From Rhizobacter sp. Root1238 (lineage in GTDB: Bacteria; Pseudomonadota; Gammaproteobacteria; Burkholderiales; Burkholderiaceae_C), in contig NZ_LMDM01000025.1 in the NCBI RefSeq assembly GCF_001425825.1, forward strand, positions 5,162 to 59,742: 54,581 bases of DNA, in the 5' to 3' direction. This document shows, piece after piece, positions 1 to 54,581 of this stretch; position 1 is the first letter of the stretch; each line of letters starts with the position of its first letter. A program made the translations under genes and the position numbers. Under the pieces are notes generated by a model, which had not been told where the DNA came from, did not search any database, and saw only the letters and a program-made list of their open reading frames with translations.

Positions 1-13
1 AGCGAGCGGTGCC

Positions 14-268
14 GGCAAAGGCGCGGGTGGGGAGGCTGTGGCGCGCCAATAAGGAGGGGGCGCCGGAGCTGGCTGGCTTCGTGGCCCCGCGCGCAGCGCG
101 TTCGTGAACTGACTGTCGCCGACTGTTTGACCACAGCGAACGAAGTGAGCGGAGGGAGTTTCGGCGACGGGCCGTGAAGCCAGCCAGCGGAGGGAAGTCC
201 TCGGCCCCCCAGGGGGCCGAGGACCGCCCCCGACGGCGCGCCACAGCCTCCCCACCCGCGCCTTTGCC
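14..268 (+). repeat. Structured repeat with 34-bp terminal inverted repeats, left copy
   Basis: Positions 14-47 and 235-268 are perfect 34-bp inverted repeats that begin GGCAAAGGCG. Inside are further nested complementary arms: 56-62 with 225-231, 68-87 with 169-188 (two G-T pairs), hairpin 88-92/96-100, 115-122 with 161-168, and hairpin 197-209/212-224. Together they fold on paper into a branched, cloverleaf-like form using most of the bases. A near-identical copy in reverse orientation starts at 54345. No credible coding sequence or target-site duplication is visible. The element starts 23 bp beyond the stop codon of the minus-strand polysaccharide operon. It resembles MITE or Correia-type elements in design, but I do not recognise the family; a role as terminator or RNA stabiliser is inference. 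Confidence 0.9.
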
Positions 269-291
269 ACAAGCAAGAACAACAACGCAAC

Positions 292-1452
292 TCACGCCAA
301 AACCTCCGCCCGCATCGAAGAAGCCTTCACCGGCTCGTTCTTGCACAGCCGCTCGATCTGCTGGTACATCTCCCAGGCCGTCACGTAGTGCAGCGAGAAC
401 CCCGGCCGGTCGCGAAAGCGCTTCGCAAGCTCGGTCCACATGCGCTGCATGCCGCCGTCGAGCAGCGCGCCCGCGGTGCGCTCCTCGGCGCCGTGCGTGT
501 GCACCTTGATGAACAGGTGGTTCTCGGCACCTTCGATGCCGATGGCGGCCCGCTCCCACAGCGCAATGCGCGCCGCGGTCGGCAGCGCGTCGGCCGAGAT
601 CTCGCTCGACTCGATGCGCGGCATGATGCCGGCCTTGCGGTCGCTCCAGTTCAGCGCCAGCGGGCCCTGCACCATCAGCAGCTCCTTGCGCTGCAGCCAG
701 TCGCCGACGCGCGCATCGCGGCCGTGGTCGTGCGACTTGCAGCAACCCGCTTCGCCGTGCGCGAAGTAGATCGAGTTGATCTTGCTCGTCTGCGTGTCGC
801 TCGGCGCCGACGGCAGCGTCATGTCCATGCGGCAACCGGTCTCGTGCAGCACGTCCAGCTCGTTGTCCACGCCGCACCAGCGGCCGTCGGGCCGCGAGTT
901 GTCGAGCGCCCAGTTGCCGTGGATGAAGGCGTACAGCACCTGGCCCGTCACCGGGTCCTTGCGCAGCAGGCCATGCCGCTCGTGCAGCAGCGTCGTGAAG
1001 CCGGTCAGCGTCTTGCGCAGGTTCTCCGCCGTGTCGTTGTCGTGGTGCAGGTGCACCTCCACGTCGCCGAAGCCGCGCCGGCACAGGTCGGCCAGCTGGT
1101 CGAGGATCACCTCGTCGTACTCCTCCTCGGGGTAGAAGAACGAATGCTGCGGATGGCGCCCGTTGCTGTCGGTGTGCTCGGCCGCGATCGTCGGGTAGCG
1201 GTCCATCCAGCGATCGACGCGCGCGCGCGCGGTCGCGAGGTCGGGCTTGTGCCAGAACGGCTCGTAGTGGTCGGCGAAGCAGAAGTGCACATGCGTGTGC
1301 GCTGCGTTGCGCCCACGCAGCCGGCGCGGCCATTGCCGCAGGTAGCTCGCGATCCACTGGTCCATGTGGCGCGAGCGCAGCAGGCGCCAGACCACGCCGG
1401 CCCCCGCGGCGATGACGACGACGGCTACGAGCAACACGAGCGCGACCATCAT
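292..1452 (-). CDS. Unrecognised His-rich membrane-anchored protein of polysaccharide operon
   Basis: This 386-aa protein has one N-terminal membrane segment (about residues 2-22) and then a soluble domain. Conspicuous motifs are HTHVHF (52-57), ADHYEPFW (60-67), HSFFYPEEEY (103-112) and VEVHLHHDND (131-140). Such His/Asp/Glu clusters suggest a metal-dependent hydrolase or carbohydrate esterase, but I do not recognise a named family, so the function is open. The start at 1452 is chosen because its ATG overlaps the stop codon of the glycosyltransferase upstream in an ATGA arrangement, so translation is probably coupled. It is the last gene of the seven-gene minus-strand operon, and its stop lies 23 bp before the structured repeat. 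A role in modifying or releasing the polysaccharide is inferred from context only. Confidence 0.85.
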   Translation of the reverse strand: MMVALVLLVAVVVIAAGAGVVWRLLRSRHMDQWIASYLRQWPRRLRGRNAAHTHVHFCFADHYEPFWHKPDLATARARVDRWMDRYPTIAAEHTDSNGRHPQHSFFYPEEEYDEVILDQLADLCRRGFGDVEVHLHHDNDTAENLRKTLTGFTTLLHERHGLLRKDPVTGQVLYAFIHGNWALDNSRPDGRWCGVDNELDVLHETGCRMDMTLPSAPSDTQTSKINSIYFAHGEAGCCKSHDHGRDARVGDWLQRKELLMVQGPLALNWSDRKAGIMPRIESSEISADALPTAARIALWERAAIGIEGAENHLFIKVHTHGAEERTAGALLDGGMQRMWTELAKRFRDRPGFSLHYVTAWEMYQQIERLCKNEPVKASSMRAEVLA

Positions 1453-52494: not shown

Positions 52495-53541
52495 ATGCAA
52501 GCACTTCAGCGCCGCGCGCTGACCCTGGTGGCGAGCGTGGCCTGCGTGCTGGCGCTGGCCGCCTGCCAGACCCCGCCGCGCGGCGATGGCGGCACGGCCA
52601 CCGTCGCCCCGAGCAGCGCCGACAAGGACGGCGTGCTCGCGCGCAGCGACCGCCTGTTGATCTACGTGCCGCAGGGCGACGACAGCTATGCGTCGATCGC
52701 GCAGCGCTTCCTCGGCAGCGCGGCGCGCGAGTGGGAGGTGGCCGATGCCAATCCCGGCATGCCGCAGGCGCGCAGCGGCCAGCCGGTGGTCGTGCCGCTG
52801 AAGCCGCTGAACCCGATGGGCGTGCGCAGCGGCCAGTACCAGACGATCCCGATCCTCTGCTACCACCGGGTGGGCCAGGGCAGCGGCAAGATGACGGTGT
52901 CGGCGTCGGGTTTCGAGCAGCAGCTCGACTGGCTGGCGGCCAACAACTTCAAGGTGATCCGCCTGAAGGACCTGATCGGTTTCCTCGAAGGCCGGCAGCC
53001 GCTGCCGAAGCGGTCGGTGGTGCTGACCTTCGACGACGGCTATGCGTCGTACTACCGCCATGCCTACCCGCTGCTGAAGAAGCATGGCTTCCCGGCGACG
53101 GTGTTCCTGTACACCGATTTCGTCGGTGCCGGCGATGCGCTCACGTGGCCGCAGATGCAGGAGATGACCGCGTCGGGGCTGATCGACATCCAGTCGCACT
53201 CGAAGACCCACTCCAACCTGATCGAGCGGGCCGCTGGTGAAAACGATGCCGCGTATGCGAAGCGGATGGATGCCGAGGCGAAGGTGCCGCGCGACGTGAT
53301 CGAGAAGCGCTTGTCGAACGAGGTGCTGACGTATGCCTACCCGTTCGGCGACGTCAACGAGGTGGTGCTGGAGGCGCTGGCGCGCAACCGCTACCGGCTG
53401 GCCGGCACCGTGACGCCTGGCGGCAACCCGGCCTGGGCGCAGCCGCTGATGCTGCGCCGGACGATGATCTACGGCAGCCATGACCTGGAGGCCTTCAAGT
53501 CCAAGTTGCAGACCGTTCGCAGCTTCACGCCTTCGTCATGA
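52495..53541 (+). CDS. Lipoprotein with LysM-like and polysaccharide deacetylase (NodB) domains
   Basis: The 348-aa protein has a lipoprotein signal (ALAACQT, Cys near residue 24), a LysM-like segment (about 60-105; DDSYASIAQRFLG, then REWEVADANPGMP), and a NodB domain: PILCYHRVG, VVLTFDDGYASYYRHAYP, QSHSKTHSNL (His ligands) and YAYPFGDVN. It should deacetylate peptidoglycan or another glycan at the envelope, positioned by LysM. A GAGGGAG ribosome binding site precedes the ATG, 11 bp after the kinase. It overlaps the TPR gene by ATGA. Confidence 0.92.
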   Translation: MQALQRRALTLVASVACVLALAACQTPPRGDGGTATVAPSSADKDGVLARSDRLLIYVPQGDDSYASIAQRFLGSAAREWEVADANPGMPQARSGQPVVVPLKPLNPMGVRSGQYQTIPILCYHRVGQGSGKMTVSASGFEQQLDWLAANNFKVIRLKDLIGFLEGRQPLPKRSVVLTFDDGYASYYRHAYPLLKKHGFPATVFLYTDFVGAGDALTWPQMQEMTASGLIDIQSHSKTHSNLIERAAGENDAAYAKRMDAEAKVPRDVIEKRLSNEVLTYAYPFGDVNEVVLEALARNRYRLAGTVTPGGNPAWAQPLMLRRTMIYGSHDLEAFKSKLQTVRSFTPSS

Positions 53542-54314
53542 CGCACGCTTTCGTTTTTCGATTCACGGCGCTGGCCGCTGTCACGCTGCTGCTGGCTGCC
53601 TGTGCGGGCGTGCCCACCGGCAACCCGGGCGGCACGACCGACGCGGGTACCGGTGCGCGCAATGACCCGGTGTCCGAGTTCGAGTCGCGCCAGCGCGACC
53701 AGGCGGTGGCGCTGGAGCGCCAGGGCCAGTGGGGCGAGGCGGTGCAGGCCTGGGAGGTGCTCGCAACGCTGCGGCCTGCGCAGTACCGCGAACGGCTGGC
53801 CGAGGCGCGGCACCGCGCCGACGTGCTGGCGACCGAGCGGCTGCAGCGGGCGCGAGCCGAGTGGAAGAAGGGCGATCTGGACGCTGCGGAGCAGTCGTAC
53901 CTGGGCGTGCTGGCCTTGCAGCCGGAGCAGGCCGAGGCGGCGGACGGATTGCGCGGCATCGAGCGCGCGCGCAACAAGCGCGACTACCTGGGCCAGCCGT
54001 CGCGGCTGACGTTGACGCGCAAACCGGGTGCGCGGATCGCGCCGAGCGAGCAGTCGATCGAGCTGGAGCATGCGGTGATGCTGTCCGGCCAGGGCGAATA
54101 CGACGAGGCGATCGGCATGCTGCAGAAGCGGGTCGATGCCGCGCCGCGCGATGCCGCGGCACGCCGGGCGTTGGCCGACACGTTGCTGAAGAAGGCGCAG
54201 GCGCTGCAGGCGAGCGATCCGAAGGCGGCGCGGGAGGCGCTGCAGCGGTGCCTGAAGCTGGAGCCGAAGAATGCTGGGGCGTTGGCGCTGCTGAAGAAAC
54301 TGCCTGTGGGATGA
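53538..54314 (+). CDS. TPR-repeat lipoprotein
   Basis: The 258-aa protein has a lipoprotein signal ending in LLAACAG (Cys near residue 22), then TPR-like helical repeats: QGQWGEAVQAWEVLATLRP, KKGDLDAAEQSYLGVLALQPEQAEA, LSGQGEYDEAIGMLQKRVDAAPRDAAARR, and a last ASDPKAAREALQRCLKLEPKNAGAL unit. TPR lipoproteins act as assembly scaffolds at the outer membrane. The start overlaps the deacetylase stop. It is the last gene before the structured repeat, 30 bp on, where a short GAGCTGAGC tandem tract lies. Confidence 0.88.
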   Translation: MTHAFVFRFTALAAVTLLLAACAGVPTGNPGGTTDAGTGARNDPVSEFESRQRDQAVALERQGQWGEAVQAWEVLATLRPAQYRERLAEARHRADVLATERLQRARAEWKKGDLDAAEQSYLGVLALQPEQAEAADGLRGIERARNKRDYLGQPSRLTLTRKPGARIAPSEQSIELEHAVMLSGQGEYDEAIGMLQKRVDAAPRDAAARRALADTLLKKAQALQASDPKAAREALQRCLKLEPKNAGALALLKKLPVG

Positions 54315-54344: not shown

Positions 54345-54581
54345 GGCAAAGGCGCGGGTGGGGAGGCTGTGGCGCGCCGTCGGGGGCGGTCCTCGGCCCC
54401 CCGGGGGGGCCGAGGACTTCCCTCCGCTGGCTGGCTTCATGGCCCGTCGCCGAAACTCCCGCCGCTCACTTTGTTCGCTGTGGTCAAACAGTCGGCGACA
54501 GTCAGTCCACGAAGCGTGCTGCGCACGCGGGCCACGAAGCCAGCCAGCTCCGGCGCCCCCTCCTTATTGGCGCGCCACAGC
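54345..54581 (-). repeat. Structured repeat with terminal inverted repeats, right copy, cut by window end
   Basis: This is the reverse-oriented copy of the element at 14-268. Its first 34 bp (54345-54378) equal the terminal repeat, and the distal one starts at 54569 with 13 of 34 bases visible; the full element would end at about 54602. It starts 30 bp after the TPR lipoprotein stop. Differences from the left copy preserve pairing: in the small hairpin an added G-C pair and a C-G to T-A double change, and in the long stem a G-T pair becomes A-T. The last hairpin gains one more G-C pair. Confidence 0.9.

Follow-up and report, generated by a model that had tools for sequence, protein, structure and literature searches.

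What is the 255-bp repeat that opens this stretch of Rhizobacter sp. Root1238 DNA, and what has kept it folded? The stretch, called the window below, comprises 54,581 nucleotides of contig NZ_LMDM01000025.1 and carries the repeat at positions 14-268 and once more, inverted, at its far end. An earlier note, made from these letters, described 34-nt terminal arms enclosing nested arms and hairpins, saw pairing-preserving changes between the two copies, and suggested selection on a folded RNA or DNA form. Copies from the same genome and from many other genera indicate that the repeat is one module of a larger interspersed element.

The architecture described for 14-268 was borne out: the 34-nt arms are perfectly complementary, and the nested inner arms and the small, core and side hairpins are all present. 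The features of the window are as follows.

1-290, plus strand: right-hand part of a composite element, its right edge taken from the relative SG703 (G005), in which the match resumes at window position 291.
14-47, plus strand: left outer arm, 34 nt, pairing with 235-268.
235-268, plus strand: right outer arm, 34 nt, pairing with 14-47.
88-100, plus strand: small hairpin with a 5-bp stem and a GCA loop (GNA class), from folding and covariation.
109-114, plus strand: CTGACT, a conserved unpaired motif in alignments A1 and A3 (described below).
115-168, plus strand: core hairpin, stem 115-121 with 162-168 and an asymmetric internal loop; 7 of 7 stem pairs are changed on both sides.
131/155, plus strand: covarying pair in the core hairpin, beside tandem G-A, from a motif-spacing check.
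136-150, plus strand: tip hairpin GC-GA-AC-GAA-GT-GA-GC with tandem G-A mismatches and pairs 136/150, 137/149, 140/146 and 141/145.
142-144, plus strand: GNA loop of the tip hairpin, from loop counts.
197-224, plus strand: side hairpin GTCCTCGGCCCC/GGGGCCGAGGAC, whose letters differ between the copies shown while complementarity is kept.
54345-54581, minus strand: second copy, a module cut by the contig end, from its match to the 14-268 repeat.

As single-stranded DNA, the module folds at -116.6 kcal/mol, against a mean of -63.8 kcal/mol for dinucleotide shuffles (z -14.7); as RNA, the values are -203.8 and -126.2 kcal/mol (z -15.6). None of 200 shuffles folded as well as the module, as DNA or as RNA. 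Between the two copies in the window, the small hairpin changes from CGCGC-GCA-GCGCG to GCGTGC-GCA-GCACGC, and at pair 82/174 T-G gives way to T-A, so both of the compensatory changes read in the earlier note are real. The second copy starts about 30 bp past the stop of the open frame at 53538-54314. No tRNA was found in the window, and 14-268 has no match in a plasmid collection.

Covariation was assessed in two alignments of the core. The first, A1, contains 36 rows from the window's genome: 56 core rows were reduced to 46 by dropping five with more than one N and five that were truncated or artefact-joined, and 10 of these 46, which are 96-99% like rows that were kept and include the window's second copy, were removed by hand. 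Under a 35-pair structure, 99.2% of the cells in A1 are paired and 27 pairs are changed on both sides; the cells so changed number 275, against a mean of 78 in shuffled controls and 10-43 in slid controls. In all 36 rows, the four pairs of the tip, GCGAACGAAGTGAGC, are intact across two tandem G-A mismatches. The second alignment, A3, contains 138 cores (135 of the rows distinct) from 88 loci across genera. Here 94.8% of cells pair, 33 of the 35 pairs are changed on both sides, and both-side changed cells number 1143, compared with 322 on average after shuffling and 160-214 after sliding; these figures are biased in the structure's favor because the rows were fitted to the model's structure, and they lean to well-kept copies because the 88 loci were picked among the best covariance-model matches. 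Across genera, the unpaired motifs are fixed while the arms vary.

Positions 131 and 155 form a pair outside the model. Located purely from the spacing of motifs (one base flanked by GA and C, the other by G and GA), they were found in 160 of 174 rows, as C-G in 66, G-C in 52, A-T in 39, G-T in two and A-C in one. A less clean candidate, 122/161, probably extends the stem of the core hairpin, to judge from the bases in these rows: A-T in 96, G-C in 40, C-G in five, T-A in two, G-T in one and other combinations in 16. A third candidate pair, within the internal loop, is not borne out by the cross-genus rows. With covariation beyond shuffled and slid controls within the genome and across genera, together with pair 131/155, the proposal of selection on a folded RNA or DNA form is upheld.

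The earlier note treated 14-268 as the whole unit. It is a real module, but only one of the two modules of a larger composite. The window opens inside this composite, which starts about 540 bp upstream on the same contig (near C25:4620; locus L031), and the contig beyond the window's edge shows the partner module. The order in L031 is an inverted partner module, an imperfect hairpin with 43-nt arms, and then the window's module; the two modules have different arms and a common core (61 nt, 89% complementary). Overall, the composite measures about 0.5-0.75 kb, with two modules around a central hairpin, and is normally gene-free. Repeat units are about 520 bp long in most copies of genome G130, 530-620 bp in G232 and about 735 bp in G001. 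The G001 unit at L226 is bounded perfectly by CACTGCGTGGCGG on both sides, and that at L225 nearly so; unit ends in the window's genome are unlike these.

The orientation of the modules is regular. Among the 90 clusters at the 88 cross-genus loci, all 48 close module pairs point apart, with core gaps of 100-265 nt, an inverted pairing of palindromic modules like that of REPINs and BIMEs; 42 of the 90 clusters show a single module, the second being undetected, and these include all 10 fetched loci of G232. Minus-strand cores lie to the left of plus-strand cores in all 22 two-strand clusters of the window's genome. In that genome, 18 of 40 clusters have cores on one strand only and 13 have an extra same-strand core, owing partly to contig ends and N-gaps. 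Like MITEs, the units are gene-free, interspersed and bounded by inverted repeats, with the exception of two wider inverted pairs. One, in G015 (L059:2005-2709), encloses an open frame of 234 aa for which no Pfam match exceeds the cut-off, and the other, in G152 (L070:794-1159), encloses a 121-aa frame that is lipoprotein-like by eye. Both were considered as an autonomous version with a gene between the modules and were rejected, as they look like unrelated cargo.

Two other repeats were encountered along the way. A separate repeat of about 70 nt lies in the spacer of a G001 composite (L225:1126-1193) and recurs at many other places in G001. Another, of the form CTTCGACAGGCTCAG...GAACGG, occurs inside one element and beside another (L146 of G008; L059:1300-1400).

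A 79-nt core query against 52 loci of the window's genome (6.52 Mb in 50 contigs) yielded 76 core matches in 40 clusters. In L031, N positions at 740-936 and 1042-1239 lie between exact duplications of 98 and 99 bp, leading from the upstream contig into the window, which we read as a scaffolding artefact. The extra core in L031 adjoins an N with the exact 98-bp duplication, and we take the other extra same-strand cores to be mostly of this kind. Raw core counts are therefore too high, because similar doubling is likely elsewhere in the assembly. The element is present at no fewer than 15 contig ends in this draft assembly.

Beyond this genome, a DNA search of 60 relatives gave a match in 16, and an exact core pattern recovered 53 stretches, from Rhizobacter sp. 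OV335 and SG703, Pelomonas sp. Root1444 and a Burkholderiales MAG. R1, a covariance model built on the core, matched 97 of the 250 genomes of a family sample, scored on at most 14 candidates per genome, and 59 of its 141 genera; it also matched 10 of the 300 genomes of an order sample, five of them outside the family. The window's genome is counted in both samples.

The changes within helices also bear on which strand, and which nucleic acid, is kept folded. Counted as cluster-by-pair events by single-linkage groups, not by phylogeny, G-T exceeds A-C by 23 to 3 in the inner helices and by 43 to 25 in the outer third arm, where the alignment is poorer. This excess points to one strand as the form whose fold is kept, either as RNA or as single-stranded DNA. 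The G-T share of paired cells is only 1-2%. Tip loops are of the GNA class in 36 of 36 rows from the window's genome and in 116 of 138 cross-genus rows, and in the small hairpin, 35 of 36 and 102 of 138 loops, respectively, belong to the GNA or GNNA class. Most GNNA loops are not GNRA, because the third base is a pyrimidine in 27 of the 34 cross-genus examples. GNA and GNNA loops on G-C stems are described in PMC4686876 as unusually stable DNA minihairpins. By analogy with such minihairpins, the loops would favor DNA, and we infer that folded single-stranded DNA is the best-supported working form.

Corresponding sites in related genomes differ in whether they carry the element. G002 shares the L226 unit of G001, and G009 carries a version whose left half differs; in G003, G006 and G010 the site is without the unit, with 21, 3 and 10 bp, respectively, between the flank matches. 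From these alignments, the simplest reading is that the unit was gained between species. The window's composite is present in OV335 (G008) and absent from SG703, in which the flanks match at 96-97% and meet directly, with a short stretch like the element's end remaining. Loss in SG703 is the simplest reading because the more distant OV335 has the composite; both gain and loss are deduced from site comparisons, not from a species tree. For 22 of the 40 clusters, the flanking DNA matches, over 270 bp or more, loci in OV335 or SG703 that carry the element, so that many of the copies may have been inherited in place. At two sites compared base by base, arm differences are mostly pairing-preserving, and at one of these the SG703 copy is without the second module. 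Whole side hairpins differ between orthologous copies. No target-site duplication is visible at the sites examined, where the relatives with empty sites have diverged or possibly carry deletions. One further site was rejected as an empty-site pair: the element that SG703 has at L125:4200-4800 corresponds, in the window's genome and in OV335, to about 690 bp containing two small open frames, so the comparison is not clean. In the window's genome, this stretch (L258:394-1049) has two small open frames that appear toxin-antitoxin-like by eye.

We read the element as a non-autonomous, MITE/BIME-like interspersed repeat, of which the repeat in the window is one module, and which would move as a folded single strand by means of a trans-acting mover. 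Our confidence in this reading is evenly balanced. It builds on copies in many genera, divergent modules, covariation, fixed unpaired motifs and the presence or absence of units at corresponding sites. The working form would be a single strand in its folded state, with DNA more likely than RNA. A trans-acting protein would recognize the two inverted modules, and the recognized composite would be excised or copied into intergenic spacers. Several points count against this reading: no transposition was observed, a search for a mover among Y1 transposases gave none, the sites examined show no target duplication, an excess of G-T is also expected of RNA and is weaker in the outer third arm, templated repair can keep the arms of long palindromes complementary, many copies may have been inherited in place, and some clusters show a single module (42 of 90 across genera), one strand (18 of 40 in the window's genome) or an extra same-strand core (13 of 40).

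The leading rival is that the composite is a structured RNA at the 3' ends of genes, in which it protects the mRNA end or aids termination, replacing ordinary terminators. We consider this possible, though unlikely. Gene context is part of the evidence for it. Where both neighbors were called, 12 of 26 clusters in the window's genome lie between convergent genes, 13 between tandem genes and one between divergent genes; the cross-genus figures are 19, 56 and 4 of 79. The adjacent gene pairs of the window, taken as background, comprise 8 convergent, 22 tandem and 9 divergent pairs of 39. Divergent settings are thus depleted (Fisher p 0.04 in the window's genome and 0.009 across genera), in a comparison that depends on a crude codon-score gene caller and on a background that takes in pairs with little room between them; convergent settings are enriched only in the window's genome. 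On sides called as facing a gene's 3' end in the window's genome, the distance between stop and core edge is 89-146 nt in 43 of 50 cases, and the arm accounts for about 75-100 nt of it. At the site C15:82522, the element is present in G000 and G008 and a remnant in G005. In G003, a terminator scan reported a terminator-like hairpin there; hairpins with T tails are visible by eye in G009 and G010 but escape the scan. This pattern fits insertion near terminators as well as replacement of their function by other means. The preference for G-T over A-C is also as RNA would have it.

Other observations argue against a role as RNA at gene ends. The terminator scan reported no terminator-like site in the composites L011 and L031, although the scan is not sensitive, because it missed the hairpins of G009 and G010. 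Between convergent genes, the first module to be met is antisense. The L226 unit, judged by eye, sits between two genes of the same direction, with a start codon about 20 bp away. The small share of G-T among paired cells and the prevalence of non-GNRA forms among the GNNA loops also speak against RNA, as does the Rfam search: at the gathering score, no family matched the window or any of 20 element loci, and the best lax match (window 1-300; E 0.041) scored 20.9 bits against a gathering score of 47.7. On the mobile-repeat reading, insertions that hit promoters would have been lost, which is the simplest account of why so few clusters lie between divergent genes.

Long palindromes can keep their arms complementary by templated repair. 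The element might be a classical MITE of an insertion sequence with a DDE transposase, its fold a by-product of long inverted repeats and hairpin-templated repair. The CACTGCGTGGCGG ends on both sides of the L226 unit, and nearly so at L225, are in keeping with such a MITE, as are the interspersed and mostly gene-free units; whole side hairpins that differ between orthologous copies are what conversion would produce. However, unpaired motifs are fixed across genera while the arms vary, an excess of G-T over A-C is not expected from templated repair, tandem G-A mismatches and GNA loops recur, and the sites examined show no duplication. We regard this origin as improbable.

Least probable is a REPIN/BIME system whose spread depends on a RAYT (Y1) transposase, which is suggested by the inverted hairpin pairs in intergenic space and by the one Y1 domain in the window's genome. 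Presence and absence speak against it: in the same 250-genome sample, Y1 occurs in 69 of the 97 genomes with the element and in 118 of the 153 without it (Fisher p 0.30), and at E 0.001 it was not found in nine of 32 other element-rich genomes (those with at least 11 matches, a set that excludes the window's genome). So does neighborhood, as the 31 Y1 loci fetched with flanks of about 1.5 kb, of which 16 come from element-bearing genomes, contain no module, and hence no RAYT gene flanked by repeats. The mover of the proposed mobile repeat would thus probably be something other than a Y1 (RAYT-type) transposase.

How does the element compare with known families? REPs are tens of bases long, and Correia elements and similar short palindromic repeats have terminal inverted repeats and many intergenic copies. 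The modules studied here are much larger than REPs, do not track with Y1, and have a three-way-junction core with a conserved internal loop; a nested architecture with paired modules sets the element apart from Correia elements as characterized above. REP/BIME repeats with RAYT, as presented in PMC2817692, resemble it in their inverted pairs of palindromic modules, their intergenic location and the retention of palindromy while letters change. Bacterial MITEs, according to PMC10969869, are likewise small, mostly gene-free and interspersed, with inverted repeats and a very stable fold. They are typically AT-rich and 50-500 bp long, whereas the element is GC-rich, spans 0.5-0.75 kb, and has two structured modules with fixed unpaired motifs and no duplication seen. 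The earlier note's view that the repeat is unlike MITEs, Correia elements and REPINs thus stands for architecture, for the failure of Y1 to track with it and for the lack of a visible target duplication at the sites examined, but not for behavior, which is of the MITE/BIME kind.

Among the matches listed in a literature search of open-licence papers, no description of the repeat was found; this argues only weakly that none exists. The repeat may have been described before, for example as Burkholderiales-1, a candidate structured RNA motif from the same order that appears without an Rfam number in a 2010 survey (PMC2864571). By behavior, the element is a variant of the MITE/BIME kind whose architecture we did not find described. 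Tentatively, it could instead represent a new mobile class, in which folded single-stranded DNA with divergent three-way-junction modules, bearing GNA/GNNA minihairpins and tandem G-A, would be moved by a non-Y1 enzyme in many genera of Burkholderiales.

The folds of such palindromes are often argued from few copies; here, the covariation is strong across genera. The element also breaks genome assemblies. Covariation, strand asymmetry, non-canonical motifs and variable presence at sites together make the choice between a role as RNA and a role as DNA directly testable.
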